DNA from: a virus | Length of the DNA: 26,595 nucleotides | Reading direction: 5' to 3' (one strand) | Virus record (IMG/VR): IMGVR_UViG_3300008267_008070 | Span: 1-26,595 of that record | Translations under genes and position numbers: made by a program | Notes under the pieces: generated by a model | What the model was told of the DNA's origin: nothing | What the model saw: only the letters and a program-made list of their open reading frames with translations | Database searches by the model: none | Shown here: piece after piece, positions 991-25,956 of the stretch | Position numbering within the stretch: the first letter of the stretch is position 1 | How the letters are laid out: each line of letters starts with the position of its first letter

Positions 991-3900
991 TTAGATATTC
1001 TCAAACGACGCACCTGTTGGTGTGATGTAGAATGTAATATCAATAAATTCTAACGATTTTGTTGGTTTGATGTAGATTTTACCTGTCATTTGGTTTCTAT
1101 CTAAATCAGCCGTATCGTTTGATACTGTTACACGGAAATCGTATAAACCTCTATCTCTTCTGATTGAATCTAAGATTGGGTTAACTGCGTCTAAGAAATC
1201 TTGTCTAACTTTTTGGTCATTTTGTTCAAACAATAATCTTACTGAAACCGCTGATATTAATTTACGTGCTTGTAACAATAATCGTCTTACGTTTATTCTG
1301 TCTAATGCAGATTCTCTAATTTGTAGAGTTTTATTACCCCAAATTACAGTTCCCACATCTGAGAAAGTAGCGATTGGGTTAATTCTACCTTTGTAAAGAA
1401 CGTCTCTATCTTCTTGAGTTAACTTCTTACGAGCCTTAATTGCATTTACGATACCTCTTGTGTAACCCGCCGCAGCGAACCAAGGGAATGCGATGTTATC
1501 TGTTAACGCTAAGTTTCTTGTTACCTCAGCCGTTGGTGGTAAGTAGATTTGTGTGTTATTAACACTATCTCTTGTTAATACCCAAGGGTAATAAGTTGCA
1601 GTGTAGTTAGAATCTATACCTGTAGTTTCTAAGTTATCAACCGCCTCTTGAGGATAAATCATATCAGCAGTATCACCCGGTGTTGAAACAAACATGTTGT
1701 AGTCAGGTGTTGTACAAATATAAATTGAATCCGCTCTATCGTTTTCAATCATATCAATAGCACTCTCAACTAAATCTGAGTGATTTAAGTAATCAATACC
1801 CGGTGTTGTAAATACGTTAATGTTTACCGCTTCAGGGTTTGAGAAACTTCTTTGACCTAACAAGTAAGCGTAGTAGTCAGTGTTTGCCCAATCTTGAGTA
1901 TTATCACCAACTGTGATTTGTTTAAACGCTCCCCAACCTGTTGCAGTAGGATATTTAACTGAAGGACAAGACCCACGTAAGTAACCACTTCTACCTAATA
2001 CGAATCTATCAGTGTTAGTTCTATTTTCTCTGTAGATATCCCAACCATCAAAACCACCTGTTACTAAGAACGTAAATTTACGTGCGAATAATCTGTAGTA
2101 TGGGTTAGATTCGTTATCAGGGTCAGAACTAAAGTTAGCAGAACCAACATAGAATCTTGTAGTTGCACTTGTAACTGCCGATAACACAAAACGAGCTTCG
2201 TCATTATTGTAAACTTTTTCGTAGAATGTGTTATTAATTGTAATACCTGAAGCTCTATTATCCATATGGAAACCTTTTGTCTTGGTATCCCAAATGTTAG
2301 CAGATACTGCAGTACAAATATCTAACGGTAATTGTTTACCTTTATAACCTGTGAAGTCAACATCATAACCTATTGTATCTGAGAAACCTAAATAGGTTCT
2401 TCTAATATTATCACCTGAAGATTTAATAATATCGTCAGCTCCTGATGATAAACCAAATGGTGGGTTGTAAACAACTTCACCCGGATAGTCGTATTTAGTT
2501 TTGAAAATTGGGAAAGGTGATTTAGAACCTGTATATGTTCTAACATCGTATCCATCAAAACCACAAGGTAATGCGTCTGACGGTGCGTTTTCATTCACCT
2601 CAACCATCACATATTTTGATTTTAATTCGTATTCACCATCCGCAGTACCAATTTTTTTAGCAATATAGTTATTTTGGTTCATATCCATAGAACAGTTTGT
2701 GAACTTTTCAATAACTACAGGGGCAGAATCCGAATCAAAGAAATCTCTAACTAACACATCAAATGTTCCATTACCGAATGAAATATTTGCGATTGAAATT
2801 TTAACTTCAGTGTTTGCTGAATCACCATCAGAAATTGTTGTGAATTTAAATAAGTTATAAACTTTATTACCTCTTAATTCAGATACAACCCAAGGTGATG
2901 TTGGTGATTGATATTTTTCTAAGTAATATCCTATTGATGTTGGGTCAGCACCTTGTCTTGCGTCAGGTAATGCCGTTAAGTCAACATTTAAACCTCTAAT
3001 AAATCCTTTTCTCCAACCATAATTTAATAATGATTGATATCTTTCTTCAACAAATATTGGAACAGTAACTCTATCTTTAGAAAAATTAGATGAACCTAAT
3101 ACTTTACTAATAAATTTAGAATCTGAATTACTGAAAGACACTTCAAAAGAATAGTTATTACCATCTTTATCTGTAACATCAATTTCAAATGTTGAATATG
3201 GGTTTTTAGTTACACCTGAATATATACCTGTTGTGTTTAATGAAACATCAGTCAATCCTGAAACTTGATAAACAGCACCACTATCATTTGAATAATTAGC
3301 GATACCTCTTGAACGAATAGTTGCAATAACTAAATCGTCAAAATCTTTATATGCTTCAGCAACATATTCATAGTATACACCTGATAATTTACCCGTATAA
3401 CAGAATATTGGTTCAACAGTAGTCGTAGTAGTTGTTGTTGTACTTACAGGATTACAAGGGTCAGTTGTTGTAGTAGTTGTTGTAGGTGCAACTGTTGTAG
3501 TTATACCTGAAGGTATATAAGTTAAATCAGTTACAGTTGTATAAAAAGATGAACCTGTATATTGAGCTCCACCAATATTGTCAAATAATGCGTAATACCA
3601 AGGGTCATTAACAGGTGCTGAATAATTGATTAAATCAGCATTTAAGTTTTCAACTTGGAATACGTTAGTTTTAGCAGTATAACCATATGATGTGTTAGCG
3701 GTATATTGTAATTCAGGTATTGGACCAAAGTAATAAACTGACGTTGCTTCAGTTGATGTATCCTTCATTACCTCAAACGCTTGGTTTTTCAATTGACTAT
3801 CCAAAGTAGAGATTTTACCATTGAATTGTTCATAAGGTATTGTTAATTTTGCTAAAATTTCATCAGGGATTGTTGTATTATCAAATGTGATATTTGTCAC

Positions 3901-4371
3901 ACTATCAGTACATCCTGTAAATTCAATATCAAATGATATTGCTTTATAAGTGACACATTCTGTCTCACAATTAGCGGTAATTGAACTTAAACATAAATAT
4001 TGTACAGTTGTTGGGTCAACGTTACCTTTAGTTGTGATTGACCAAGATGGTCCTGCATCATATCCCGACAATCCTAAAACTCTAGTTACAAACAATTGAT
4101 TTGATTGTTGTAAATATGATTTAGCGATATACGATGCCTCGTATTTTGGAATTTGAGTATTTATGAACTTCTCAGGTGAAGTACCTCCAAAGAAAGTTGA
4201 GAATTCGTCATAGTTTCGGATAAAAATAGGTTCAAAAGCCGGACCTTTTAAAGTCTCCCCTACGATACCTAATGTAGTTACACCTACACTTTGTGCTACG
4301 AAACTCAAATCAACTTCAGATGTATATACACCTGGTGAAACAAATACTTTACTGTTTGTTGATGTTGCCAT
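991..4371 (-). CDS. Contractile tail sheath protein (T4 gp18-like), greatly enlarged
   Basis: The sheath polymer contracts to drive the tail tube through the host envelope. The N-terminus has the classic sheath start (VFVSPGVYTSEVD, residues 9-21). The C-terminal third has the conserved core: GGFDGWD near 774, the PPTAEVTRNLALTDN region, an IWGNKTLQIRE segment and the INVRRLLLQARK helix near 1020-1035. At 1126 residues it is far longer than T4 gp18 (659), so several hundred residues of extra domains are inserted between the conserved ends. Residues 291-318 of the insert form a Thr tract (T3, T7 and T8 runs separated by short Pro/Cys-containing spacers). The codons in the runs are a mix of ACA, ACT and ACG, so the tract is kept at protein level. 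It is the third gene of the gp14-gp15-gp18 run and ends in its own terminator. The inserted part probably faces outward. Confidence 0.93.
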   Translation of the reverse strand: MATSTNSKVFVSPGVYTSEVDLSFVAQSVGVTTLGIVGETLKGPAFEPIFIRNYDEFSTFFGGTSPEKFINTQIPKYEASYIAKSYLQQSNQLFVTRVLGLSGYDAGPSWSITTKGNVDPTTVQYLCLSSITANCETECVTYKAISFDIEFTGCTDSVTNITFDNTTIPDEILAKLTIPYEQFNGKISTLDSQLKNQAFEVMKDTSTEATSVYYFGPIPELQYTANTSYGYTAKTNVFQVENLNADLINYSAPVNDPWYYALFDNIGGAQYTGSSFYTTVTDLTYIPSGITTTVAPTTTTTTTDPCNPVSTTTTTTTTVEPIFCYTGKLSGVYYEYVAEAYKDFDDLVIATIRSRGIANYSNDSGAVYQVSGLTDVSLNTTGIYSGVTKNPYSTFEIDVTDKDGNNYSFEVSFSNSDSKFISKVLGSSNFSKDRVTVPIFVEERYQSLLNYGWRKGFIRGLNVDLTALPDARQGADPTSIGYYLEKYQSPTSPWVVSELRGNKVYNLFKFTTISDGDSANTEVKISIANISFGNGTFDVLVRDFFDSDSAPVVIEKFTNCSMDMNQNNYIAKKIGTADGEYELKSKYVMVEVNENAPSDALPCGFDGYDVRTYTGSKSPFPIFKTKYDYPGEVVYNPPFGLSSGADDIIKSSGDNIRRTYLGFSDTIGYDVDFTGYKGKQLPLDICTAVSANIWDTKTKGFHMDNRASGITINNTFYEKVYNNDEARFVLSAVTSATTRFYVGSANFSSDPDNESNPYYRLFARKFTFLVTGGFDGWDIYRENRTNTDRFVLGRSGYLRGSCPSVKYPTATGWGAFKQITVGDNTQDWANTDYYAYLLGQRSFSNPEAVNINVFTTPGIDYLNHSDLVESAIDMIENDRADSIYICTTPDYNMFVSTPGDTADMIYPQEAVDNLETTGIDSNYTATYYPWVLTRDSVNNTQIYLPPTAEVTRNLALTDNIAFPWFAAAGYTRGIVNAIKARKKLTQEDRDVLYKGRINPIATFSDVGTVIWGNKTLQIRESALDRINVRRLLLQARKLISAVSVRLLFEQNDQKVRQDFLDAVNPILDSIRRDRGLYDFRVTVSNDTADLDRNQMTGKIYIKPTKSLEFIDITFYITPTGASFENI
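3418..3501 (-). repeat. Thr-rich (mucin-like) low-complexity tract inside the sheath gene
   Basis: These codons give residues 291-318 of the sheath: three runs of Thr (3, 7 and 8 residues) separated by VAP and DPCNPVS. Thr codons are mixed rather than a pure triplet repeat. Similar T6-T7 runs with Pro and Cys occur in the fibre protein encoded at 15144-15869. Confidence 0.85.
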
Positions 4372-6285: not shown

Positions 6286-8052
6286 TTGGAAGAAATAAAT
6301 AAAGATAATTTAACCATAGAACAGAAAGCACTCAAAGCACTTGAGACATATAGTGGTGCGAATAATTATATATTAAAATTAATAGACAAAAAAAATAAAA
6401 ATAAAAAATTTCACCCTACAAGGTCACAATCAGATTATATCTTAACTTATATTGATACAACACCTAAAGTTGCTAAAAAATGGGTTGAACTTGACCCTTA
6501 TTTCGCTAAAAAAATTGCCGATGAAAAATTACTAACTGAAGTTCCAAAAGAAATTTGGGTTGAGAAATTATTAGTTGAAAAAGAAAAGTCATACCACATT
6601 TGGGGGAAAATTAATTCAGGTGATACCATTTCTGAAATGTGGATGCCTAAAGGTGCGTTAATTAAAACACACAAAACTGAAGAAGTTATTATTGATTATA
6701 CTAAATATTCTCACAGACCCCCACTTAATCATCAAAAAGAGGCTATTGAAAAATTAACAGGTTCTAAAAGATTTATATTGGCTGATGATATGGGTTTGGG
6801 TAAAACCACGTCAACAATTATTGCTGCGTTAGAAACAGGTGTCAAAAAAGTATTAATAATATGTCCCGCATCACTGAAAATTAACTGGCAACGTGAGATT
6901 GAAAATTACAGTGACAGAAGTGTGTACATTGCAGAAGGAAAAAACTTTTCAACTGAACACGATTTTGTAATCGTTAATTATGATATATTAAAAAACTTTC
7001 ACGAATTAAAGTCAAAGAAGGAAACTATTATGGATAAATTTAATCCTGAATTGATAATAATTGATGAAGCACATTACATACAAAACGGTCAAGCACAACG
7101 AACTAAATTAGTTAACGATTTCGCATCAAAGTCTAAATATCTATGGTTATTAACAGGTACACCTATGACTTCAAGACCAATGAACTATTATAATTTGTTA
7201 AATTTAATTGAAAGTCCTGTGGCTCAAAATTGGATGGCTTACGCGATTAGATATTGTCAGGGGTATCAATTTATGGCGGGTAAACGAAAAGTTTGGAATA
7301 CATCAGGTGCGTCAAATTTAGAAGAACTTAGAGATAGAACATCAAGACAAGTATTAAGAAGATTAAAAACTGAGGTGCTAGATTTACCTGACAAAATAAT
7401 AACACCGGTATATCTTAGATTAAAATCTAAAGAATACGAAAATGAAGTTGGTGAATACTATGAATGGTATGATACCAAAAAAGAAGAGTCTAAGTCATTA
7501 ACAATACAATTCAGTAAGTTAATGAAAGTTAGACAGATAATAGCCGAAGAAAAAATTAAACATACAATAGAATTAGCCCAAAATATTATTGACCAAGATA
7601 AAAAGGTAATAATATTTACTAACTTTACAGATACATTAAAAAGAATTCACGAACACTTTGGTAAACAATCGGTTTACTTAGACGGTTCTTGTACTAAACC
7701 ACAAAGACAATACGCAGTTGACCAATTTCAAGAAAATGACAAAATTAAAGTTTTTGTCGGAAACTTAAAAGCCGCGGGTGTCGGAATTACTCTCACCGCT
7801 GGTGAGGCTTGTATTATGAATGACTTATCATTTGTTCCTTCAGACCATTCTCAGGCTGAAGACCGAGCGTATAGATATGGTCAAAAATCAAATGTATCCG
7901 TTTACTATCCAATATTTGAAAACACAATTGAAGGTGTTATTTATGATATCCTATCAAGTAAGAAAAATATTTTTGAAACAGTAATGGGTGACAATATTGA
8001 TAAGAGTGATTTTATTGGGGAATTAATGAACAAGATTAATACTTTAAGATAA
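6286..8052 (+). CDS. SNF2-family (SMARCAL1-like) DNA helicase/translocase
   Basis: This is a superfamily 2 ATP-dependent DNA translocase. It has motif I ADDMGLGKT (residues 166-174), motif Ia IICPASLKINW, the DEAH box (260-263), motif III LTGTP (289-293), a C-terminal RecA domain with VYLDGS and motif VI with AEDRAYRYGQ near 525-534. DDMGLGKT and the RxxRxGQ pattern are diagnostic of SNF2 proteins, and the compact form without large insertions resembles SMARCAL1/HARP annealing helicases. In T4-like phages, UvsW is the comparable helicase that remodels recombination and fork structures, so a role in replication or recombination is likely. The first usable start is a TTG at 6286, because no ATG occurs in frame until about residue 118; an ATG five bases upstream is out of frame. 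It could be a rare start or a one-base error in the T run. Confidence 0.88.
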   Translation: MEEINKDNLTIEQKALKALETYSGANNYILKLIDKKNKNKKFHPTRSQSDYILTYIDTTPKVAKKWVELDPYFAKKIADEKLLTEVPKEIWVEKLLVEKEKSYHIWGKINSGDTISEMWMPKGALIKTHKTEEVIIDYTKYSHRPPLNHQKEAIEKLTGSKRFILADDMGLGKTTSTIIAALETGVKKVLIICPASLKINWQREIENYSDRSVYIAEGKNFSTEHDFVIVNYDILKNFHELKSKKETIMDKFNPELIIIDEAHYIQNGQAQRTKLVNDFASKSKYLWLLTGTPMTSRPMNYYNLLNLIESPVAQNWMAYAIRYCQGYQFMAGKRKVWNTSGASNLEELRDRTSRQVLRRLKTEVLDLPDKIITPVYLRLKSKEYENEVGEYYEWYDTKKEESKSLTIQFSKLMKVRQIIAEEKIKHTIELAQNIIDQDKKVIIFTNFTDTLKRIHEHFGKQSVYLDGSCTKPQRQYAVDQFQENDKIKVFVGNLKAAGVGITLTAGEACIMNDLSFVPSDHSQAEDRAYRYGQKSNVSVYYPIFENTIEGVIYDILSSKKNIFETVMGDNIDKSDFIGELMNKINTLR

Positions 8053-8092: not shown

Positions 8093-9631
8093 ATGAACAC
8101 ATTAGAACAAAAAATCAATTTAATTACAGAAAAATTAGAAAAAATTGATATAGAAAAAAACAAAAATTTATTTTTAACTGAAATGAAAAAAATAGGGATT
8201 GAAAAACTTCCCTATTCTTATTCTTCATTAAAACAATTTATTGATGCCGAAACAATGTCTTACCATTATAATAAACATTATAAAGGATACGTTGAGAAAT
8301 TAAATGACGCGTTAAAAAAGTCAAATCAAGGTGATGTTGAATTAGAAGAAATTATTAAAAGTATTAGTAAATACAATAAAACAATCCGTAATAATGCCGG
8401 TGGGGCTTTTAACCACGCGTTGTTTTGGAAAATGTTAACACCGTCACCACAAAAACCATCAGGTAAAGTTTATTCCAAAATTATAAAACAATTTGGTAGT
8501 TTTTCAGAATTCAAAACTAAGTTTGAGGAAATTGCTAAACAAAGATTTGGTTCAGGATGGGTGTGGTTAGTTTTAACTAAACGTAATACGTTAAAAATTG
8601 TTACAACCCCAAACCAAGATAACCCATTAATGAACGTTATTAAAAACGGGGGATATCCTTTATTAGGATTGGATTTATGGGAACACGCCTATTATTTGAA
8701 ATACCGAAACAAAAGAGACGAATATATAAAAAACTTTTGGAAATGTGTTAATTGGAAATTTGTTGAGGAATTATACTCAATGAAAATGAAAACAAAATTA
8801 AATGAAAGTGTAGGTATTAAAACATTATTAAACGAATCAAAAGATTTAGTTTGTACCGGAAAAGAAGTTGAGGAAATTAGAACATTATTTAATACTAATC
8901 CGTCGGTAAAAGATTTATACAAAAATTCAATTAATCAAATATTAAAAGTTGTACTATCCAAACATTATTATGATAGAGGTAAGTACTCACCTGATTCTGC
9001 ATCAGGAATTTATGATTTAGAAAATAATGGTAGGTCTGTTATAAATAAACTTAACACTAATTACAGTTGTTTTTGTCAGTTAAAAAAAGATATTAATGTT
9101 GTTATAACTAAGATGGGTAAATCACCTATTGATTTTACTAATAAATCTAATACCGACCAAGTTAATGAATGTCAAAGATTTGTAAACGCCTTGAATTATT
9201 TTAAAACAAGAATCTTTGATACCTCATCATCAACATTTGAAAAATTAATGAAAATATTAAACACTACAAATAGTTGGGGTGATTTTAGGGAAGTTTATGT
9301 TGTTGAAAAATTAAAAGAGATTTTTGGTCAAGATAAGGTGACAAAAACAGGTGACCTTGGTAGTATGAAAGATATGATTGGTGGTGTTGACTGTGAGGTG
9401 GTAACTAGTTCAGGACTTAAAACGGGACAAATAAAACCATTTCAAAATGTTAAAGACGATGGTAATAATATGACAATATATGGTTCAGGTAGTGTTACAC
9501 CGTATAAAACAGATTGGATTATTTTTATGAATAATCAAAATAAAATCTTGGTATTTAAAAATGACAATACTAAAATCGTTAATGGAAACTTTGTTTTCCC
9601 TAAGAACGATTTAATTTATACTTTGGTTTGA
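8093..9631 (+). CDS. Mn-type superoxide dismutase domain fused to a predicted PD-(D/E)XK nuclease domain
   Basis: Residues 38-228 are a full Fe/Mn superoxide dismutase, which converts superoxide to hydrogen peroxide and oxygen. All four metal ligands are visible: H58 (in SYHYNKHY), H108 (NNAGGAFNHALFW), D194 and H198 (LGLDLWEHAYY). Q175 in NQDNPLM and the GG in the second motif point to the manganese type. A coiled-coil-like lysine/glutamate-rich extension precedes it (1-37). The linker (229-252) contains two LNE motifs at 236-238 and 246-248. The C-terminal 260 residues are unrelated to dismutases. Near 395-450 they show a helix with E400, then GGVDCEV (D433, E435) and QIK (446-448), the pattern of a PD-(D/E)XK endonuclease core. 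The dismutase call is firm, the nuclease call moderate. The fusion is in one uninterrupted frame. No Shine-Dalgarno is visible. The job in infection is unknown; oxidative defence plus DNA cleavage is inferred. Confidence 0.85.
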   Translation: MNTLEQKINLITEKLEKIDIEKNKNLFLTEMKKIGIEKLPYSYSSLKQFIDAETMSYHYNKHYKGYVEKLNDALKKSNQGDVELEEIIKSISKYNKTIRNNAGGAFNHALFWKMLTPSPQKPSGKVYSKIIKQFGSFSEFKTKFEEIAKQRFGSGWVWLVLTKRNTLKIVTTPNQDNPLMNVIKNGGYPLLGLDLWEHAYYLKYRNKRDEYIKNFWKCVNWKFVEELYSMKMKTKLNESVGIKTLLNESKDLVCTGKEVEEIRTLFNTNPSVKDLYKNSINQILKVVLSKHYYDRGKYSPDSASGIYDLENNGRSVINKLNTNYSCFCQLKKDINVVITKMGKSPIDFTNKSNTDQVNECQRFVNALNYFKTRIFDTSSSTFEKLMKILNTTNSWGDFREVYVVEKLKEIFGQDKVTKTGDLGSMKDMIGGVDCEVVTSSGLKTGQIKPFQNVKDDGNNMTIYGSGSVTPYKTDWIIFMNNQNKILVFKNDNTKIVNGNFVFPKNDLIYTLV

Positions 9632-9653: not shown

Positions 9654-10775
9654 ATGTCAGTTATACCAGAACCACATAGAAGTGACTTATATAAAAAAGT
9701 AAGACACTTGTTAGGAGCTCCATTACGTTCAGTTGAATTGGACGATGAACAAATGGATACTCTTTTAGAATTTTCCATTGATGATTACTCAGAACAAGTA
9801 CAAAATTGGTTAATTGAGTCTCAATGGACTTCATTATACAATTTAAACTTAGATACTCAATCGTTATCACGAGCGTTTATAACTAAAAGTTTAGATTTTG
9901 AAACAAGATATAGTTACGCATATTCTAAAATTGTTGGTTTACAAGCCGGTGGTGATTGGGAATTGAAAAAAGATTTTGTACAATTACAACCTAATCAACA
10001 AATTTATGAAATACCTGCGGGTAGGGAAATCAATGAGGTTTTATGGTTTACACCTGCAACTTTGAATAACTTATTATTTGACCCTTGGACTTTTGGTTCA
10101 TTAGGTGCAGGTGGTATTGGTGGACCCGGTGGTTATTCACAAATGGGTATGTCAGGGTCTTTCTTTATGATGCCAGCATTTGATATTATGTTAAGGATGC
10201 AAGAGATTAATATTCAGAAAAGAATTATTAGTAGTGAAATGACTTATAGAATAACGGCATTACCTGAAGGTAAGAAGGCGTTACATTTAATGAATACACC
10301 TGGTGGTAAATTTGATTTTGGTAGTTCATCATTAATGAGAGGTAAAGTTTGGTATTGGTATTATGATACTGAAGGCGCTGACCGTGATAAATGTTTAAAA
10401 GATAATCCTGATATTATCAAATTACCATCTGATGTTCCTTTTGATAAAATGAGTTGGAGTGATTTAAATCAACCGGCACAAGTTTGGGTTAGACGTTGGT
10501 TTGTTGCTTCGTGTAAAGAAACATTATCAAAAGTTCGTGGTAAATATAGCGGTAACTTAAAAACACCTGATTCAGAATTAACTATGGATTATCAATCATT
10601 GGCAACCGAAGGTAAAGATGAAAAGACTAAATTAATTGAAGAATTGACGGGTGCTGAGGGTAGATTAACAAGATTGAAACCTGATAAAGTTATGGAACGT
10701 GAAGCGTTGTTGGCAGAAAACTTAAATAAACAAATGAAATTTAGGGCGTTCCCAAGACAATTTTATGTAATATAA
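9654..10775 (+). CDS. Neck / head-completion protein (T4 gp13-like)
   Basis: gp13 binds the portal after DNA packaging and forms the upper neck ring. The N-terminus fits the family pattern of a short helix, then GAPLRSVELDDEQMDTLLEF (residues 21-40) and SIDDYSEQVQNW. In T4 gp13 the equivalent reads as Gly-His-Pro followed by SVELTDEQID. The rest alternates strands and helices typical of connector proteins. A Gly/Met-rich loop at about 147-170 (GAGGIGGPGGYSQMGM) is a probable insertion. The C-terminal RRWFVASCKETLSKVRGKYS helix is also common in phage versions of this protein. At 373 residues it is longer than T4 gp13 (309). Unusually, it is on the opposite strand from, and 3.4 kb away from, the gp14-like gene. 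The 110-residue gene starts on the base after its stop. Confidence 0.75.
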   Translation: MSVIPEPHRSDLYKKVRHLLGAPLRSVELDDEQMDTLLEFSIDDYSEQVQNWLIESQWTSLYNLNLDTQSLSRAFITKSLDFETRYSYAYSKIVGLQAGGDWELKKDFVQLQPNQQIYEIPAGREINEVLWFTPATLNNLLFDPWTFGSLGAGGIGGPGGYSQMGMSGSFFMMPAFDIMLRMQEINIQKRIISSEMTYRITALPEGKKALHLMNTPGGKFDFGSSSLMRGKVWYWYYDTEGADRDKCLKDNPDIIKLPSDVPFDKMSWSDLNQPAQVWVRRWFVASCKETLSKVRGKYSGNLKTPDSELTMDYQSLATEGKDEKTKLIEELTGAEGRLTRLKPDKVMEREALLAENLNKQMKFRAFPRQFYVI

Positions 10776-15901: not shown

Positions 15902-15933
15902 AAAAAAACAAAGGGGTCGATTTAGACCCCTTT
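15902..15933 (-). terminator. Rho-independent terminator ending the glycosyltransferase operon
   Basis: The arms at 15910-15918 and 15925-15933 form a perfect 9-bp stem (AAAGGGGTC / GACCCCTTT) with a 6-nt loop. On the minus strand it is followed by G and seven T. It abuts the stop codon of the last glycosyltransferase gene. Confidence 0.88.
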
Positions 15934-17636
15934 TAACTTTCTTTTCTTAACCCCCTATCATAATGGTCAAATCTATTATGTTCGGTTGGTGTTAATAGTA
16001 ATAAACCAAAATTTAAATTACCTTTTTTAAGTTCTTGATACATATGACTCATCCACGTTTGTTCGTAAGGATGTGCCCAAGTTGTCTCTAAAAACATTTT
16101 TCTACTACCTGATTTTGAAACAATTTGAGGCCAGTTACAATAATAAATTTCACCTGTAACATACGGTAATTCATCGTATATTTTAATGTTATTATATTTA
16201 ACTTTAGGGGCATTTGGGTCAGTTCCTATTTCGGGTAATTTAGAATAGTCAGGCCAAAATTGTTCTCTAACTGTTTGGGGTACATTATACCAAGACCATT
16301 GTGTACTATTGTCACCAAAAAATTCTGTAAAGTTTAATTTAAGAAAATCAAAATTTTCTCTCTCAACAATATTAACTGATTTTTGATATAAGTTATTAAC
16401 TTTTCTATTGAACCCATTTCTACAAACACCTTCTTGTGGGTAGAAGAACATATCATCTTCAAAGAAAAACATATACTCTAAATCTGATTTTTCAAAATGT
16501 TCAGCAATCCATTGTCTACCACCACAAATACCTAAATTTTCCATTTTAATATGTTCAAACCCATACTTTGTACAAATCTCACTATACTTAGGTGTTGTTG
16601 TTAAATCTGTTGAATTATCTAACAATATCTTTCTTGGTTTATTAATAAAATCAGTGTCATACGCTAACATTGAATCTATCAATGTTTGTAATTGATTTGG
16701 ACTATTAAATCCGATAACATATAAACCAACGTTATTTTTATTTTTAGTGATATAGTTAGTTGACGGACTTATTTGATTATTTGTAGGTAATGACTTGTTA
16801 AGTTTTTCTTTAACTACTATATTATCATTTTTTAAATCTTCAAAAAATTTAGATAATAATCCGTTATTTTCAATTTCAATATAATTTACTAACTCAGGAT
16901 AACGATATATCATAATAGAAAATAAACTTTCTTCAGTACCCATATACCCTTTATTAAGGGTGTCAGTTAACAATGAATAATATATTGAATTGATATTTGT
17001 TATATCATTTTTTGGTCCACCAAAAAATCCACCTCTACCAACAATATTTACATTGTTACCGGCATATTCGTTTAATTTAGTAATATCAAAACCATGAATT
17101 TCGGTATTAGTTTCATAAGGGAATGTAATAAATGTAAATTTACTAATATATTTGTCTATCTTATCTAAAACTTTATCGTGAGTAAAATAACCAGGATGTA
17201 CTGTATTAACAATACCCGCATCTAACCAAAATAAATAATCAGAATTAAATTTATCCATAATTTTAGCATCGTGTAATAAAAACATTTTGCTCATAACCAA
17301 TGGATTATAGAATTCTAAAGTTGCTTGTGTAGATTCTCTTAACCAACCAACTTGAGATAACCAATTTTCATCCGTTCTTATTTTTTGAATTAATTGATTG
17401 TAGTCATTGTTAATAAACCAATCTTTATTTCTTAAAATAAATTGTGTGTTGGAAACATCCCTTTTTGACATTACGAACTCTTGGAGTTTATCGTCCCCAA
17501 AAATTATCATGTTTTCTTCTATATCAAGTAATTGACCAAATTTATCAAGATAATGGGACATTGACCTTGCCCAATCATTTGATAATTTATCTCTACCGAT
17601 ATCCCATAAACCTGTTACAATAGTTGTTTTATTCAT
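15933..17636 (-). CDS. Two-domain glycosyltransferase (HtrL/YibB-like plus GT-A domain)
   Basis: The N-terminal half (about 1-290) resembles the HtrL/YibB family: TIVTGLWDIGRDKLSNDW at the start, a central YLFWLDAGI (D139), GRGGFFGG near 200 and TEESLFSI near 234. These are positions used for nucleotide-sugar and metal binding in GT-A folds. The C-terminal half (about 305-567) is a second GT-A-like domain: VGLYVIGFNSPNQLQTLI, a KILLDNST strand, GGRQW, and MFFFEDDMFFYPQ near 390-400 as an acidic metal site. The protein may therefore add two sugars in succession. It is soluble, with no membrane segments, so it should work in the cytoplasm. It is the last gene of the cassette and ends at a terminator. 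Donors and acceptors cannot be read from the sequence. Confidence 0.72.
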   Translation of the reverse strand: MNKTTIVTGLWDIGRDKLSNDWARSMSHYLDKFGQLLDIEENMIIFGDDKLQEFVMSKRDVSNTQFILRNKDWFINNDYNQLIQKIRTDENWLSQVGWLRESTQATLEFYNPLVMSKMFLLHDAKIMDKFNSDYLFWLDAGIVNTVHPGYFTHDKVLDKIDKYISKFTFITFPYETNTEIHGFDITKLNEYAGNNVNIVGRGGFFGGPKNDITNINSIYYSLLTDTLNKGYMGTEESLFSIMIYRYPELVNYIEIENNGLLSKFFEDLKNDNIVVKEKLNKSLPTNNQISPSTNYITKNKNNVGLYVIGFNSPNQLQTLIDSMLAYDTDFINKPRKILLDNSTDLTTTPKYSEICTKYGFEHIKMENLGICGGRQWIAEHFEKSDLEYMFFFEDDMFFYPQEGVCRNGFNRKVNNLYQKSVNIVERENFDFLKLNFTEFFGDNSTQWSWYNVPQTVREQFWPDYSKLPEIGTDPNAPKVKYNNIKIYDELPYVTGEIYYCNWPQIVSKSGSRKMFLETTWAHPYEQTWMSHMYQELKKGNLNFGLLLLTPTEHNRFDHYDRGLRKES

Positions 17637-17646
17637 ATTATGATAT

Positions 17647-18255
17647 TTAATTTTTTATTTTACACACCCACACTACTTGTGTGAATTCATCTGACATAAA
17701 CGGTGACAAGTTGTTCTCAATACAACAGACCTCAATATCAGAATCTTGAATTTCTAACCAATTCCATATTTTATTAACAATATTATTATTAAAATAATCA
17801 ACATTAGGACCGTAATCGTGAGCCATAATGATGTCACCCGGCTTTAATAACTTTGATAATAAATTAAATTCGTGTTTTTTTTGACCACCATCACATAAAA
17901 CTATTGTTGTACCATCTTGTTGGATGTAGTTTTTAATTTCGGTTTCATTAAGTATACTTGAATATCCGGGACCAAAAATATTTTCAATACGGACCTCTAA
18001 GTTATTATTGGTTTCCATATACTCAAATAATGAATGTTTTTCAGTAACATCATAACTAATAAATTTAGTATTTTCCATTGACATAGAATTTAATAAATTT
18101 CGTAGTAATAACGTCAAACCACCAAAAGCGGTCCCTATTTCTAAAATTTGTTTAGGATTTGTTGTGTTGAATAGTTCTTTAAATATTGGAGATATATTTT
18201 CATGTTGTTGAGTCATTATCCCCTCATACAAAAACCAACCTTTTAATTCTTCCAT
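17647..18255 (-). CDS. SAM-dependent methyltransferase (CmcI/cephalosporin hydroxylase-like)
   Basis: The 202-residue protein has a Rossmann-type methyltransferase core. Motif I is ILEIGTAFGGLTLL (37-50), followed by FISYDVTEK (acidic residue for the ribose of SAM), a strand TTIVLCDGGQKKHEF and IIMAHDYGPN near 141-149. The combination of GTAFGGLTL and a metal-binding-like DGG...AHDYG is typical of the CmcI-like methyltransferases found in polysaccharide gene clusters, which usually methylate sugar hydroxyls. It is next to glycosyltransferases on both sides, so O-methylation of the glycan is the likely role. The 64-nt gap upstream is the only sizeable one in the cassette and contains a TATTTATA element 29 nt before this start, so the last two genes may have an extra promoter. 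Confidence 0.72.
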   Translation of the reverse strand: MEELKGWFLYEGIMTQQHENISPIFKELFNTTNPKQILEIGTAFGGLTLLLRNLLNSMSMENTKFISYDVTEKHSLFEYMETNNNLEVRIENIFGPGYSSILNETEIKNYIQQDGTTIVLCDGGQKKHEFNLLSKLLKPGDIIMAHDYGPNVDYFNNNIVNKIWNWLEIQDSDIEVCCIENNLSPFMSDEFTQVVWVCKIKN

Positions 18256-18284
18256 ATGTTTTTACAAAAAAATTAAAGGATTTA

Positions 18285-18292
18285 TATAAATA
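18285..18292 (-). promoter_or_regulatory. TATTTATA element inside the glycosylation operon
   Basis: On the minus strand the octamer lies 29 nt before the methyltransferase start, in the only gap over 12 nt within the cassette. The spacing is longer than for the other copies, so support is weaker. Confidence 0.25.
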
Positions 18293-18319
18293 GTAAATTA
18301 AAATCTCAAACAGAATGTG

Positions 18320-18994
18320 TTATAAATTACCGTACTTTTCAAAGTATTCATTAATTCTATTAACATCTTTTGTAACAAAATAATTACCGTCAAAAAATTC
18401 AAGATTTTTTTTATGATTTTCTAAATCAATATTTCGTTGTTCATAATGGTCACCTCCGGTTACTACAGGGTGTTCAATATCAATTAAGAAATTAAATTGA
18501 TTTGTGGATGGTAAAAATTGTTTAACTGCATTATAATGACCATCAGTATAAATTACTTCAGGATTAAAACCATCCGATAAATCAATTATTTTATGATGTA
18601 TTATTGGAAAACAACTAGTTGGACTATCATTACTTATTGATACGATATGTTTAACTTTTCTTAAATTTTCAATTAAGTTATGATGATTAAGAATTCTAAT
18701 ATCATCATTTAAAAACGTTATAAAATATGAATTACTAAGTTTATAACCTTGATTTAAAAATGTCGGTAATGATGCGTATCCTGTTAATCTATCGTCAATA
18801 ATAAATTTAATATCAAAATCAAATTTATCCGATAATATTTGATGTGAATTATAATCGTCAGTATCTAATCTAACAACAACCTCAACATCATCCTTATGGT
18901 TTTTAAAAGTTTCTGAAATATTATTTAATGTATTTTTTAACATTTCATATCTACCTCTTGAAGGTAATATAATTGACAATATCTTTTTTTTCAT
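18320..18994 (-). CDS. Family 2-like glycosyltransferase (GT-A fold)
   Basis: The 224-residue enzyme opens with ILSIILPSRGRYEMLKNTL, the standard first strand and helix of GT2 enzymes, then VEVVVRLDTDD (D45, D46 region) and YFITFLNDDIRI near 92-103, which supplies the acidic nucleotide-sugar and metal site. The later part (KIIDLSDGFNPEVIYTDGHY) is less familiar. It is shorter than most GT2 enzymes and has no C-terminal membrane segment, so it probably works on a soluble acceptor. It starts 3 nt after the stop of the preceding gene. The transferred sugar cannot be told. Confidence 0.75.
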   Translation of the reverse strand: MKKKILSIILPSRGRYEMLKNTLNNISETFKNHKDDVEVVVRLDTDDYNSHQILSDKFDFDIKFIIDDRLTGYASLPTFLNQGYKLSNSYFITFLNDDIRILNHHNLIENLRKVKHIVSISNDSPTSCFPIIHHKIIDLSDGFNPEVIYTDGHYNAVKQFLPSTNQFNFLIDIEHPVVTGGDHYEQRNIDLENHKKNLEFFDGNYFVTKDVNRINEYFEKYGNL

Positions 18995-18997
18995 AAT

Positions 18998-19858
18998 TTA
19001 ACTATATGGTGGAAAATACCTTGATTTATTATCAACATTAGTTTGGTTATAAGTATTGGCAAAAAATAAAAAATTTGAGAACCATCCACAAATCCTCATA
19101 ATTTTTTCCGATTTAGATATTGCGTACATTTCAAAAACAACTTCATTCATATAGTTTAATAATTCATCATCACTCAATCCTAATCCTCTAACTCCAGAAT
19201 GGTCTACTAAATAATTAAAATCGTTAAAATAAAGATTATCAAATTTTTCATTTCTCAGAATTTCTTTCATTTTATCAAATTGACTGAAAAATAAAATAGG
19301 TTTATCTTTATGTTCTAAAATAAATTGTTTAATCCAATTTAAATTTTTAGTAATTTCATCATCTTGATTACTTAGTTCAAAAGGTCTATAATGGATAACA
19401 TAAAAATTATCAGGATAATTTGATAATTTAGTTTCACAATATTTAGTAGTTTCTTCAGTTAACATTGATATTTTAGGTAAATCATCTCTAGTTTGCCATA
19501 ATATAAAATTCTCTAAATTATCCACACCATCAACTTTTTCATCAACATAAACATAATAAATTTTTGAATTATCAAGTATTAATTCACAAGTATCTCTTTC
19601 TGGAAAATTACCTAATGCAGGATTAAAACTTCCTGTTGAATCAATTACCAAATCATCAATTAAATCAAAATTTAATATTTTACCAAAAATATCTCTATCA
19701 TACGAATCCATTTTATATGGATTTAAAGTAAAGTCCACATACGCTTTAACAGTATACCCTAATTTTTTTAATTGTTCTTGTGTTACATATATTCTGTATA
19801 ATACATCATAAGTACTTCCAAAACCAGCGTTAAAGTTTGATGTTATATATGCTTTCAT
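18998..19858 (-). CDS. Probable glycosyltransferase, GT-B-like
   Basis: The 286-residue protein starts MKAYITSNFNAGFGSTYDVL, with a Gly-rich loop after the first strand as in GT-B enzymes, followed by YRIYVTQEQLKKLGYTVKAYV. A NFYVIHYRPFE strand around residue 148-158 resembles the H-x-R segment of fucosyltransferase-like folds, and YAISKSEKIMRICGWFSNFLFF near 250-272 resembles a nucleotide-sugar-binding loop where such enzymes have SxFS. Family assignment is tentative. The start is the ATG at 19858, which overlaps the stop of the upstream gene as ATGA; an ATG eight codons earlier would overlap further. The ATGA junction suggests coupled translation. The context of ten other sugar-modifying genes supports a transferase role. 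Confidence 0.55.
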   Translation of the reverse strand: MKAYITSNFNAGFGSTYDVLYRIYVTQEQLKKLGYTVKAYVDFTLNPYKMDSYDRDIFGKILNFDLIDDLVIDSTGSFNPALGNFPERDTCELILDNSKIYYVYVDEKVDGVDNLENFILWQTRDDLPKISMLTEETTKYCETKLSNYPDNFYVIHYRPFELSNQDDEITKNLNWIKQFILEHKDKPILFFSQFDKMKEILRNEKFDNLYFNDFNYLVDHSGVRGLGLSDDELLNYMNEVVFEMYAISKSEKIMRICGWFSNFLFFANTYNQTNVDNKSRYFPPYS

Positions 19859-20781
19859 TCGTAATTTAAAATGTCGTGCCAAACCATATATAATGGTTTA
19901 GGTTTATTACAACTTGGTTCCCAAAGTTCAAAATGATAATGGTCGTGTTCATTTGTTGCGTAAACATCAAATGTAAATGGTATCATAATATCTTTATTCT
20001 CATCGTGAGCAACTTTCATTATAGCCTCCTCAGTACATAGTACTTTTTTATCCATAACTTTTTCACAAGTTTCCCAAAAACTCTTTAAATAAGATTTCAT
20101 TGAATTAGTGTCTCCACCTATCAAACCACCAATAGGGTACGGTCCTAAAAACCCGTAATCTAATATATTATTTTCTTGATAAAAACCATAACCAATTTGC
20201 GGTCCGTTACTTGTTAAACTAGCAACTTTACCGTCACAAATTTTATTTAGTTTGTCAAATATTTTAGTATTTAATAAATTTGTAAAATCGTATTGTGTAA
20301 TTTCTTTATCAGCCCAAACAGGTCTTGTAACACCTATGTGATATTTTTTATCACCATACGGAACACAATACATCCAAGGGAAAATACCTGGGTGTTGTAA
20401 ACCACAATCAATCCAATAAATTCTATCACAATCATCAAGTTCTTGTTCTAACGCTTGGAACTTACCCCACATAATTTCAGGTCCTCTACCACTTAAATCA
20501 GTATCAAAATTAACATCCCTAATTTCACTAATTTGTTTATGATATTTCATATCACTTAATTCAAGTAATTTAATTTCCAAATTAGTTAAATTATTATTTT
20601 CTTTTAAATCTAACAATTCTTGTTCATTTCTTTTATGTGTGTAACATATGATAGGATAATCAATTCCTTTACAATGACTAATTAGAGACCCTTGATATCT
20701 AGTTTTTAAAGATGTTCTCGTACTTTGGAATGGATACCCTTCAGCATCCATCCAATACGCAGTTATAATTTTAGTTTTCAT
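19855..20781 (-). CDS. HtrL/YibB-like glycosyltransferase
   Basis: The 308-residue protein shares with the N-terminal half of the two-domain enzyme at 15933-17636 a start KIITAYWMDAEGYPF, a DRIYWIDCGLQHPG strand (D125), IGGLIGGD around 217-224 and a TEEAIM near 251. In the YibB-type GT-A fold these supply the metal site and the sugar-donor pocket. MWGKFQALEQEL before the DxxG strand corresponds to the helix holding the donor base. The C-terminus is rich in His and aromatic residues (EHDHYHFELWEPS). Sugar and acceptor are unknown. The ending ATGA overlaps the following gene by 4 nt. Confidence 0.65.
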   Translation of the reverse strand: MKTKIITAYWMDAEGYPFQSTRTSLKTRYQGSLISHCKGIDYPIICYTHKRNEQELLDLKENNNLTNLEIKLLELSDMKYHKQISEIRDVNFDTDLSGRGPEIMWGKFQALEQELDDCDRIYWIDCGLQHPGIFPWMYCVPYGDKKYHIGVTRPVWADKEITQYDFTNLLNTKIFDKLNKICDGKVASLTSNGPQIGYGFYQENNILDYGFLGPYPIGGLIGGDTNSMKSYLKSFWETCEKVMDKKVLCTEEAIMKVAHDENKDIMIPFTFDVYATNEHDHYHFELWEPSCNKPKPLYMVWHDILNYE

Positions 20782-20793
20782 ATTAATTTTGTG

Positions 20794-21537
20794 TTAAAAT
20801 CTTGTGTGTAAATCACCCGTTTTAGTGTAGAAATAAAAACAATCACTCATTAGTCTAAGCATTCCGTCATAAGAATATTTCATATCGGCTTCTAAAATTG
20901 AAATACCAATCTCAAATCCGTCAGGGTAATTTCTAATGTTATTAGCAATACTATACCATAAAAATTGTTCCCATCTTTGAACAAAGAATCTAAATTTCGC
21001 GTTATTTTTAAATACTAAAATTTGTTCATTCACACAGTGAGCGTCGTCCCATTTAGTATGTTCAAACACATCATAATCAAATAATTTTTCTCTAAAAAAA
21101 CTTTGGTCAGGATTTTGTTTATGTGTTCCAATTGGTGCTGGACGTTCAAATAGACAATCTAAATTGTTTTGTTCCATATGGTCAAACATATTTAATATTT
21201 TTTGCTCGTCAAAACCTTTCCACACACCCCAATCACCATCAGTGAATATAATATAATCGTGATGTACATCAGGATTTTGTTTCTCAAAATCAATTATGTG
21301 TTTAAGGGATAAACATTTTAAATTTAAATGAAAATCAAAACCACCACCAGTACAATTTAATGAATATGGTTTTATTATATTTGTGTGAATTCTATCACCT
21401 TGATTTAACAACTCTTCATTAGTTGTTGTAATAAACAAATTACAATGTTGAGTTTTTTCTCTTAATTCATTGTAAAATTCTTTAGTTTTTGATTCATACG
21501 GTTCATTTACCGCTAACGTAGTAAAACAATACTTCAT
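20794..21537 (-). CDS. Glycosyltransferase with a DGD metal site (GT-A)
   Basis: The 247-residue protein has the organisation of a GT-A transferase. It starts KYCFTTLAVNEPYESKTKEF, has a strand HCNLFITTTN, then DYIIFTDGDWGVWKG, in which D100-G-D102 is the classical DxD site for the metal and nucleotide sugar. HCVNEQILVFKNNAKFRFF (about 167-185) is the acceptor-side helix commonly found in this type. DFHLNLKCLSLKHI resembles the FxxKxxxL donor helix of GT8 and YibB-like enzymes. No transmembrane segment is visible. It begins 3 nt after the preceding stop, within the same operon. Family-level assignment is not certain. Confidence 0.68.
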   Translation of the reverse strand: MKYCFTTLAVNEPYESKTKEFYNELREKTQHCNLFITTTNEELLNQGDRIHTNIIKPYSLNCTGGGFDFHLNLKCLSLKHIIDFEKQNPDVHHDYIIFTDGDWGVWKGFDEQKILNMFDHMEQNNLDCLFERPAPIGTHKQNPDQSFFREKLFDYDVFEHTKWDDAHCVNEQILVFKNNAKFRFFVQRWEQFLWYSIANNIRNYPDGFEIGISILEADMKYSYDGMLRLMSDCFYFYTKTGDLHTRF

Positions 21538-21540
21538 ACT

Positions 21541-22221
21541 TTATAAATTTAATTCATTTAAAAATCTTAAACACTCCTCACCACTAGGAACTGTTGGTTT
21601 ATCATTTTCATCTAATTGCATACCGATGAAAAATTTTTTATCGTCTCTAGGGATGTAAGTTTCTCTTTTATCAAACCCAAAATATGTTATTGAATTAGGG
21701 TTAATATTTTGAATATATTGATATAAGATTTCTTGGTCGTCACCCCATCTTAATTCCGACTTAGATATAAAGTCGTTCATATGTGTCTCAAAGTCAACTA
21801 TTTTACCTTTAATACCAAATAAACCACTTGGTACAGGAGCATGCCAAGGATGGTCTCGTATTATAAAATACTCAGTACCTTCATCTAACCATCTATTAAT
21901 ATAATCAACTTCTCTTACCGATACTCTACTATCCAAATCTCTTGATAACGTAATATTATTATCAAAAAATGATAGATACCTCCAAAAATAAGGAAATGAT
22001 AATGAAGGTTTACCGCCCACAACAACATCAGAGACATCAATAACTGTTGCACCTTTTTTTGATAATTCATCAATTTTGTCTAAATTAGTTAAATTTGGGT
22101 GGTAATAAATAACTGTTTTCCAATCAGGTAATAATAAGTTGTTAACTTCAATATTTTTTTCGGCACCAACGTAATACTTATCTTCATACCCAAATAAACT
22201 ATAAGATATTATTTTTTCCAT
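21541..22221 (-). CDS. Glycosyltransferase with RDLDSR motif
   Basis: This 226-residue protein follows a pattern seen in sugar-transfer enzymes of phage and capsular clusters. It begins ISYSLFGYEDKYYVGAEKNI, then a LPDWKTVIYYH strand, FWRYLSFF, and NITLSRDLDSRVSVREV (R94, D95, D97, R99), the acidic donor-binding site. DHPWHAPVPSGLFGIKG follows. The close fit of 'S-L-F-G...KY..G...N' with 'W....Y' and 'RDLDSR' gives good confidence in a GT-A-type fold, though not in the sugar. It starts 2 nt after the preceding gene ends, so translation is probably coupled. Confidence 0.68.
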   Translation of the reverse strand: MEKIISYSLFGYEDKYYVGAEKNIEVNNLLLPDWKTVIYYHPNLTNLDKIDELSKKGATVIDVSDVVVGGKPSLSFPYFWRYLSFFDNNITLSRDLDSRVSVREVDYINRWLDEGTEYFIIRDHPWHAPVPSGLFGIKGKIVDFETHMNDFISKSELRWGDDQEILYQYIQNINPNSITYFGFDKRETYIPRDDKKFFIGMQLDENDKPTVPSGEECLRFLNELNL

Positions 22222-22223
22222 AC

Positions 22224-23222
22224 TTAATCGTTAATAATTTTATCTAAAAATTCTAATATATAATCTTCATTAAAATATATAGGTAATTTATTTTCTTTGA
22301 AAATAGGTTCTTCAAAATAAGATTTTAATTTATTATTATCATTGTAAACCTCATCTAAATAATTTACTAATTCGTCAATAGATTCAAAGTCGTGAGCATT
22401 AATAAATGACTTAGGATTAAAACCTTCTTCTTCTATAAATTTATTACCGTAAAAAATAGGTATTGAGTTTGATGCGTATGCGTGAATTATTTTTTCTTGT
22501 GTTAAATAGTCAGTGTTAGTATATTGATATGCAATATTGAAAACAGAATCTGAAAAAAAGTTAATTTTATCTCTATATGTTAAACCATCAATTTTACCCA
22601 TATAATCAGGGTTAGAGTAGTTATGGTATTTATGTGGATTTAAACCTTCTTCATCTTTTATTGTTGCCCTCCAAGGACCTGACGATTTTATCCAATGTTT
22701 TTCCATTATTTTATCAAATAAAATTTCTCTATCAGGATTATGACTTGCTTGAACAATACTACAAAAATGTTTTTTATTTTTGATAATTTCATCAAAATTT
22801 CTGGTATCTGTTAACCAACCAAATTCTGTGTCAAACATACCACCCTCATTATGTAAAACAAAGGCGTCAAGTACTAAAGTTGGAAATCTTAAATATCTTT
22901 CGTGATTAATATGTTCATAACCTAAACAATAATAATTGTTCCCTTTATTTAAATGTGAATTGAAGTCCGGTCTCGCTTCACCACTTAGAAATATTTTCTT
23001 AACCGAATCATCATACTCGTGAATACCTTTTACAATATCATTTGTGTAGTAATCAAGTTCATTCTCCCTATAAAATTGATTGGTATAAAATACTAAATCA
23101 GGGTTTTTAGAATCTATTACTACATTATATTTTTTTGATAAAATTTTATGGAAAAAATTTAACCAAGAAAAATTACCAACACCTGGGAAACTTGCTCTTG
23201 AAATTTTTATTGTTGTTTTCAT
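22224..23222 (-). CDS. Alpha-1,3-fucosyltransferase-like protein (GT10)
   Basis: GT10 enzymes transfer fucose from GDP-fucose to GlcNAc or glucose residues. The C-terminal half holds the family's donor-binding region: NIAYQYTNTDYLTQEKII (about 228-245, usual form FENS..DYVTEK), then AYASNSIPIFYGN and FNPKSFINAHDFES (about 268-281, usual form PP.SFI...DF). SGPWRATIKDEEGLNPHKYH before it corresponds to the variable linker. The N-terminal domain (VGNFSWLNFFHKIL and KNPDLVFYTN) fits the acceptor domain. ENS is replaced by QYTN, a modest change. Length 332 is normal for bacterial members. It needs GDP-fucose, for which no synthesis gene is visible here, so host supply or genes elsewhere are needed. 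Confidence 0.85.
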   Translation of the reverse strand: MKTTIKISRASFPGVGNFSWLNFFHKILSKKYNVVIDSKNPDLVFYTNQFYRENELDYYTNDIVKGIHEYDDSVKKIFLSGEARPDFNSHLNKGNNYYCLGYEHINHERYLRFPTLVLDAFVLHNEGGMFDTEFGWLTDTRNFDEIIKNKKHFCSIVQASHNPDREILFDKIMEKHWIKSSGPWRATIKDEEGLNPHKYHNYSNPDYMGKIDGLTYRDKINFFSDSVFNIAYQYTNTDYLTQEKIIHAYASNSIPIFYGNKFIEEEGFNPKSFINAHDFESIDELVNYLDEVYNDNNKLKSYFEEPIFKENKLPIYFNEDYILEFLDKIIND

Positions 23223-23233
23223 TATTTGTATTT

Positions 23234-24076
23234 TTATTTTTTATAAATGTTATCTATATTAATAAACTCATATCTTGGTTCATCATCAACCTTTAAATTT
23301 ACGTATTGACCAAAAACTTCATTATTTGAATTAGGTCCGTCATTTGTTAACGGCCAATATATTTTTTCGGCATTAGATAACAAACACGCCCAAAATGAAA
23401 ATGTACCTTGAGCCGCGATTATTTTATTAAATGAAGTTATTTCTGAAAAAATATCAAGAATTGACCCATCAATTAATTGAGGGTTATATTTCTTTAATTT
23501 TTCTAGTAAACTTGAATGTTGGTATGTGTGGTCTAAACTAACATACAAATTTTCAAAATTTTCTTTTTCTAAAATATCTAAATAATATTCATCAGGTAAA
23601 ACAAACCGAGCATCGTCCCTACTATTTCTTAACATAATAACAATATCGTTATTATTTCTTTTTTCTTTAACTAAAGAACTATAATAACCTTTAATACGTT
23701 CCTTATGTGGTTTAACATAATCGTACTTGGTAAAGTAACCCAAAACCATTATTTTATGATTTGGGTAATTTTTAACAAATTCATCAACACTTCCAAAATG
23801 ATATAAATCGCTATCATCCATAGTTTTAACAGGTGTATCAAATGAATTTTTACCTTTAAAACCTTTAAACGGAAATACTTGATTTACGTAATTACCTACA
23901 GATTGTTCTTCTCTTCGGATTAAAGCGTTTTCAGGTACAATAAAGTCAGACTCAATTAATTCTGCGGCGACTCTGCTAATACCATATATGAATAATTTGT
24001 TTCCTAAATTTTTTCTAAACGATGAAAAATGACCACCTAATAAACTATCGGTATATATATCGTATAACTCAACCAT
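23234..24076 (-). CDS. Fucosyltransferase-like protein (GT11-type)
   Basis: The 280-residue protein resembles alpha-1,2-fucosyltransferases. The clearest element is KIIAAQGTFSFWACLLS (about 218-234), matching the family segment ending in STFSWWGAYL, next to AEKIYWPL. The DIVIMLRNSRDD stretch (residues about 142-153) sits where GT11 enzymes carry HxRRGDY, but it reads LRNSRDD, so the key His-Arg-Arg-Gly-Asp motif is degenerate. Then DEYYLDIL and ENLYVSLDHTYQHSSLLEKL follow the usual order. It may use another donor. Placed between the GT10 gene and a methyltransferase gene, it fits glycan capping. Confidence in the family is moderate. Confidence 0.55.
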   Translation of the reverse strand: MVELYDIYTDSLLGGHFSSFRKNLGNKLFIYGISRVAAELIESDFIVPENALIRREEQSVGNYVNQVFPFKGFKGKNSFDTPVKTMDDSDLYHFGSVDEFVKNYPNHKIMVLGYFTKYDYVKPHKERIKGYYSSLVKEKRNNNDIVIMLRNSRDDARFVLPDEYYLDILEKENFENLYVSLDHTYQHSSLLEKLKKYNPQLIDGSILDIFSEITSFNKIIAAQGTFSFWACLLSNAEKIYWPLTNDGPNSNNEVFGQYVNLKVDDEPRYEFINIDNIYKK

Positions 24077-24082
24077 AATTTT

Positions 24083-24643: not shown

Positions 24644-24647
24644 ATTT

Positions 24648-25898: not shown

Positions 25899-25956
25899 AA
25901 ATTTCACTATTTTAGTTTAATAATAATTTTATTTTAAAATAAATAAAGATGTTTTT

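Follow-up and report, generated by a model that had tools for sequence, protein, structure and literature searches.

The gene at 8093-9631 of a T4-like phage fragment joins a superoxide dismutase (SOD) to a nuclease-like sequence, and raises the question of whether such a chain is real and, if so, whether it works as one enzyme or is taken apart into two. The window, that is, the whole 26.6-kb stretch of viral DNA analyzed, also carries genes for a tail sheath, a family B DNA polymerase, an SNF2 helicase, and a head-tail adaptor. The reading preferred here, with a probability of roughly 0.68, is that of a capsid-targeted polyprotein which is cut by the prohead protease into a free Mn-SOD and a free nuclease, is carried in the head and probably enters the host with the DNA. 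The features concerned are listed in table 1.

Table 1. Features of the SOD-nuclease locus in window coordinates (site conservation counted over 37 non-redundant proteins of the family)
Feature	Residues	Coordinates	Strand	Basis
SNF2-family helicase, upstream neighbor		6286-8052	+	104/108 testable fusion loci, 35/38 nuclease-only loci
SOD-nuclease polyprotein gene	1-512	8093-9631	+	512 aa, one uninterrupted frame
N-terminal propeptide, predicted capsid-targeting region	1-30	8093-8182	+	AF2 helix 2-30; variable sequence ending in E30
Predicted prohead-protease site 1	L28-T29-E30 / M31	8174-8182	+	E30 37/37; position 28 L/I 37/37
Mn-type SodFM1 SOD domain	36-226 (about 36-228)	8198-8770	+	Pfam PF00081 + PF02777; Foldseek MnSODs
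SOD metal ligand	H58	8264-8266	+	Invariant, 29 relatives
SOD metal ligand	H108	8414-8416	+	Invariant, 29 relatives
C-terminal water-coordinating Gln	Q175	8615-8617	+	Invariant, 29 diverse relatives
SOD metal ligand	D194	8672-8674	+	Invariant, 29 relatives
SOD metal ligand	H198	8684-8686	+	Invariant, 29 relatives
Predicted prohead-protease site 2	L236-N237-E238 / S239	8798-8806	+	E238 37/37; position 236 L/I 34/37, M 3/37
Predicted prohead-protease site 3	L246-N247-E248 / S249	8828-8836	+	E248 36/37; position 246 L/I 36/37
PD-(D/E)XK (QxK type) nuclease domain with N-terminal helical subdomain, predicted	249-512	8837-9628	+	AF2, Foldseek PDB/BFVD
Helix Glu ahead of core, predicted active site	E400	9290-9292	+	Invariant
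Conserved Asp	D427	9371-9373	+	Invariant in fusions
Catalytic Asp (predicted) in GGxDC	D433	9389-9391	+	Invariant
QxK catalytic motif (predicted)	Q446-I447-K448	9428-9436	+	Q, K invariant
Head-tail adaptor-like (phrog_211), downstream neighbor		9654-10775	+	99/117 fusion loci, 36/39 nuclease-only loci

The Fusion and Its Two Domains

The translation of the gene is free of stops. In the viral-contig search, the best 80 loci match essentially the whole query with 56-66% identity, and a check of individual fusion ORFs in viral contigs confirmed 136, of which 72 are distinct. Since the same single frame is found in these 80 loci and 136 ORFs, from many independent contigs, an assembly or sequencing error is ruled out. 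The initial annotation had described an in-frame join of the dismutase to about 260 nuclease-like residues; this is an intact ORF, and the same domain order recurs in many contigs. The locus lies in a single conserved gene neighborhood, with the helicase on its 5′ side and the adaptor on its 3′ side. The T4-like late promoter TATAAATA was found 11 times against 8.9 in shuffles, and this candidate line of evidence was dropped for lack of an excess.

The fusion is absent from the isolate-phage records searched, and no description of it was found in the open-access literature. Judging from predicted structures, it has evidently been deposited already as BFVD A0A6J5L953 ('superoxide dismutase [uncultured Caudovirales phage]', 501 aa), which matches the window nuclease domain with a TM of 0.91 and 38% identity. 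The name of that entry covers the SOD half only, and no functional description of it was found. As far as could be found, the fusion has been sequenced before and its second half is without an earlier description.

The SOD domain is recognized by Pfam far above cut-off, as Sod_Fe_N (PF00081, residues 36-115, E 3e-22) and Sod_Fe_C (PF02777, residues 122-226, E 2e-40). In accordance with the complete Mn-type dismutase of the initial annotation, all four metal ligands and Q175 are kept throughout the 29 relatives, and G192, two residues ahead of D194, is also invariant in them. A C-terminal Gln with a Gly at D-2 usually marks an SOD as Mn-preferring (PMC10172142), and the combination of Q175 and G192 indicates that the window SOD prefers Mn. 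Foldseek similarly groups this half with MnSODs (identity up to 48%).

The nearest cellular SODs found are almost all from Bacteroidota. These SodFM1 Mn-SODs are ~42-54% identical to the window SOD and share its ligands, the C-terminal Gln and the Gly at D-2, but none of the 56 examined has a propeptide site ahead of LPY. The MCP of the relatives in turn resembles MCPs of Flavobacterium phages. Both likenesses together suggest Bacteroidota hosts, and the carriers of the fusion are probably a family of giant T4-like phages infecting this group.

Dismutases had been called rare in tailed phages, which is roughly right, as SOD-only genes among the isolate-phage records belong to a few jumbo phages (the PA5oct group and Vibrio phage 2.275.O). 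Their SODs are separate, unfused genes of 28-30% identity and were rejected as the same system. Several 'phage' records with SOD matches were left out because they resemble host contamination or chromosome pieces.

For residues 250-512, sequence similarity gave no convincing family match in Pfam, PHROGs, or PDB. A Pfam match to ABC-3C MC4 was below cut-off and limited to the window protein (1 of 29 members), and is ascribed to chance; phrog_14585 and other PHROG matches were weak, were not common to the family and were likewise rejected. A profile of the C-terminal half, run against PDB sequences, gave nothing meaningful, and the scan of genome contigs yielded no cellular homologues of the domain.

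The predicted structure was more informative. With 30 aligned sequences as input, AlphaFold gave a confident model (pLDDT 92.7, pTM 0.86) that resembles PD-(D/E)XK enzymes. Its best Foldseek match in PDB is I-Ssp6803I (probability 1.00, with a moderate E of 1.3e-3), and the other top folds are NhoI and archaeal Hjc (probability about 0.5-0.95). As no more than ~110 core residues can be aligned, the TM-scores are modest. All three share the predicted core fold and the D...QxK motif with the window nuclease, which differs by an additional helical N-terminal subdomain (GRSVxNKLNTNY..FC) that is highly conserved.

The ~264-residue C-terminal half contains the motif string G431-x-D433-C ... Q446-I-K448. 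D433, Q446, K448, E400, and D427 are invariant in the 29 relatives, and E400, D433, and QxK448 are kept even in the divergent L102, whose nuclease is 38% identical to that of the window. The same E, D, and QxK positions are invariant in distant nuclease paralogues. The nuclease call of the initial annotation is thus supported, at the level of a modeled fold and its predicted active site.

Predicted Cleavage Sites at the Domain Joints

The cleavage motif of gp21, the prohead protease of T4, is L/I-x-E, with the cut behind the Glu; the same enzyme takes off the short targeting propeptides at the N-termini of T4 internal proteins (PMC9026906). Three candidate sites of this type are found in the window protein, none of which had figured in the initial annotation, nor had the propeptide. 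The first stands directly ahead of MKKIGIEKLPY. The other two are in the linker, as KLNE/S and as, for instance, ISE/G, and most residues between them vary. There are a few exceptions in the family, as L074 is without the third site and the sites of the SOD-less L190 and L207 are altered.

The site counts of table 1 are not independent observations, because the family members share ancestry. The motif is also short, and plain L/I-x-E is met by chance ~3 times per nuclease domain. The form with a small P1′ residue, [LI]xE[SGAM], is 16-34 times enriched at the N-terminus (1.11 per protein vs 0.07 expected) and in the linker (1.54 vs 0.05). It is depleted in the SOD domain (0.05 vs 0.41) and in the nuclease domain (0.24 vs 0.54). 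In the full-length AlphaFold model, pLDDT falls below 50 at residues 19-46 and 232-251 alone, and both junctions of the polyprotein are predicted to be disordered. The strongest independent support for cleavage comes from this depletion inside the domains and from the reappearance of the motif in proteins of other architecture.

The enzyme expected to cut such sites is encoded by the relatives. An S77 (gp21-family) prohead protease was found in 8 of the 20 relatives' contigs carrying the fusion or its kin, and in all five of those longer than 250 kb; the remaining contigs are shorter, most of them fragments. In G002, the protease gene is at 117086-117811. Protease, scaffold, and capsid genes are located together and in the same order in three contigs (322, 322, and 174 kb). 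The MCP is a gp23 homologue (PDB 8t9r/5vf3) with a conserved LINE/AT, a predicted site, at the expected end of its propeptide in 3/3 head clusters. The scaffold protein has several conserved L/I-x-E sites. The window itself stops short of the head genes.

Cleavage of the linker by a host protease, or a linker that is a mere flexible hinge, in either case with capsid targeting absent, is very improbable. The degenerate motif would allow this, as would the fact that the S77 protease is known from relatives' contigs and the protease of the window phage is not within the 26.6 kb. Against it, L/I at P3 and E at P1 are conserved by position, the MCP propeptide end bears the same motif, and the motif is avoided within the folded domains.

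A nuclease paralogue with a tag of its own is found in one subgroup, which includes one of the 322-kb genomes (G002: 118104-119060, equal to L112: 4104-5060). It starts with MKITISE/GQ, has the prohead protease gene on one side and the scaffold gene on the other, and is homologous to the window nuclease in an hhalign profile comparison (E 2e-12). The head clusters of G001 and G005 showed no counterpart of this gene.

Modular Variants of the Chain

In sister phages, the gene at this locus encodes the nuclease but no SOD. Nearly all of these SOD-less proteins retain a propeptide with L/I-x-E directly before the nuclease (LVLSE/SKAEKC). In L218-L221, the SOD is gone and both flanking sites are kept (SINE/MKKI and IISE/G; in the shortened form SINE, then MKKIEIEKLKSIISE, then GKSERC), which looks like a recent deletion of the SOD. 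The opposite case is L236 (4261-6915, plus strand), where 885 aa hold an SOD and two tandem PD-(D/E)XK-type nucleases. Its inter-nuclease linker, KLTE/STRKNRLLLE/G, has the layout of KLNE/SVGIKTLLNE/S in the window protein.

In the nuclease-domain tree, the nuclease-only state requires at least two separate changes, L218-L221 not counted, and no SOD was found elsewhere in the nuclease-only contigs G013-G017. Together with the SOD-less sisters, these comparisons mark the SOD as an optional part of the chain and the nuclease as its stable part. The SOD-less sisters, L218-L221, L236, and the tagged paralogue of G002 are hard to explain with a plain hinge linker.

An uncut, bifunctional SOD-nuclease could act late in infection, for instance by shielding replicating DNA against superoxide while processing or degrading DNA, and the linker motifs would then be incidental. 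All fusions being in one frame, the conserved locus beside the helicase, and the resemblance of other jumbo-phage SODs to ordinary intracellular auxiliary genes agree with this, and the presence of SOD in phages has been interpreted as a defense from reactive oxygen inside the host cell (PMC12542629). Such an enzyme is nevertheless unlikely, because the linker is disordered and variable save at the L/I-x-E positions, the motif recurs at the joint of the two nucleases in L236, and the SOD is dispensable.

These data also bear on the functions that had been proposed for the chain. The idea that DNA cleavage is tied to redox state found no support, given the disordered linker, its two conserved sites, and the many nuclease homologues without SOD. 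On account of the protease-type sites in that linker and the SOD-less sisters, the two domains are probably separated and work independently. A role against a host oxidative burst is possible for the SOD, more as pre-made virion cargo than as half of one bifunctional enzyme that also acts on DNA.

A Possible Route From the Prohead to the Host

The order of steps in the preferred, cleaved-cargo reading is modeled on T4 head maturation. The N-terminal ~30 residues would act as a T4-style targeting propeptide and direct the chain to the prohead core. As the head matures, the S77 (gp21-type) protease would remove the propeptide by a cut after residue 30, and cuts at 238 and 248 would remove a ten-residue spacer. 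Two separate enzymes, the Mn-SOD (~208 aa) and the PD-(D/E)XK nuclease (~264 aa), would then be present inside the head, and on hand with the DNA at injection, ahead of any phage transcription. The SOD might clear superoxide, either in the stressed, newly infected cell or around the packaged DNA. The nuclease might attack host, competitor, or plasmid DNA early. We infer from these comparisons that the chain is packaged, cleaved, and injected, that both products are active, and what they act on; for injection, the analogy is with T4 Alt and the T4 internal proteins.

The closest known systems are T4 IPI-III and Alt (PMC9026906, PMC3012670), which share the N-terminal propeptide ending in L/I-x-E, the gp21/S77 protease, and the gp23-type capsid. 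Alt is itself an enzyme and has a cut site at either end (PMC9026906, PMC3012670). The T4 cargoes are single products, whereas the window chain has two enzymatic modules (three in L236), SOD included, with paired sites between them. In giant phages of the phiKZ/SPN3US type, many ejection proteins are packed in the head, and a gp21 relative cleaves them behind a Glu motif. They differ in their motifs (S/A-x-E or A-x-E) and in propeptides often longer than 100 residues, and the parts of the sources consulted do not mention SOD or nuclease cargo (PMC5694885, PMC10052503).

A nuclease packed with DNA needs a safety mechanism, and this was counted against the cargo reading. The enzyme is presumably idle in the capsid, where metal or unprotected substrate would be missing. 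With the T4 targeting sequence, staphylococcal nuclease has been packed into active virions, whose DNA was cut when calcium was added (PMC3012670), so a packaged nuclease is compatible with live phage. Further points against the cargo reading are the shortness of the motif, the kinship of the sequences, the site exceptions, the lack of head genes in the window, the weak enrichment of N-terminal tags in the G005 fragment, and the position of the locus, which adjoins neck and tail genes and is outside the head-core cluster.

The hazard of a nuclease inside the head would also speak for a different fate of the cleaved products, as components of the head or core. The SOD would shield virion DNA from oxidation in sunlit water, and the nuclease fold would be an inactive, DNA-binding core protein. 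The evidence for cleavage is identical to that of the cargo reading, and the high conservation of the helical subdomain also counts for this reading. It is quite improbable, though, since neither L102 nor the distant paralogues depart from the invariant catalytic positions, a sign that catalysis is under selection.

A broader form of the cargo reading stands at about even odds. It supposes a virion-delivered, self-processing cargo system in which an SOD and one or two nucleases between protease sites are cut in the head and injected ready-made, the SOD being in the cell before phage transcription, and in which dozens more predicted cargo proteins per genome carry the same type of N-terminal tag. 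If the cargo reading is right, the chain would be, as far as found, the first predicted phage cargo polyprotein, with several enzymes made as one chain and freed by the head-maturation protease, and an antioxidant enzyme would join the proteins injected with phage DNA. It would then be testable whether phage success is limited by reactive oxygen during the opening minutes of an infection. L/I-x-E at the joints plus short N-terminal tags would also provide a sequence rule for spotting injected effectors in uncultured giant phages.

In the two 322-kb genomes (G001 and G002), L/I-x-E with its Glu falling within positions 5-10 was counted in 69 of 323 and 71 of 321 ORFs. Shuffled sequences gave 26 ± 5, and the observed count is inflated by paralogous families. 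In cellular control ORFs, the motif near the start was found 8 times vs 6.5 in shuffles, and the 174-kb contig (the G005 fragment) showed only a weak excess. Recurrent forms are MK[FYI]LITE/S and MKK(V/I)xRLTE/S(D/E)L...IINE/Q; examples are the G002 ORFs at 33856-34179 (minus strand) and 37247-37621 (plus strand). Such N-termini may be the targeting tags of a large injected repertoire.

Some other genes were noted in passing. Just upstream of the helicase in L102, a 132-aa ORF (3054-3452, plus strand) resembles a SET-domain methyltransferase by eye. On the minus strand of the window, a protein at 14-910 starts with MKLIITESQQRYIKKRITERN, followed by LDWDDNILNMPTK with a HAD-like DxD motif; it had no match in the Pfam search, and homologues are found near the same place in G001 and G002. 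It adjoins the tail sheath gene (991-4371, minus strand), whose product is unusually large (1126 aa) and has a threonine-rich insert, only its last ~280 residues matching known sheath families. Downstream of the tail genes, ~10 ORFs at 15933-25907 (minus strand) are glycosyltransferase- and methyltransferase-like by eye.
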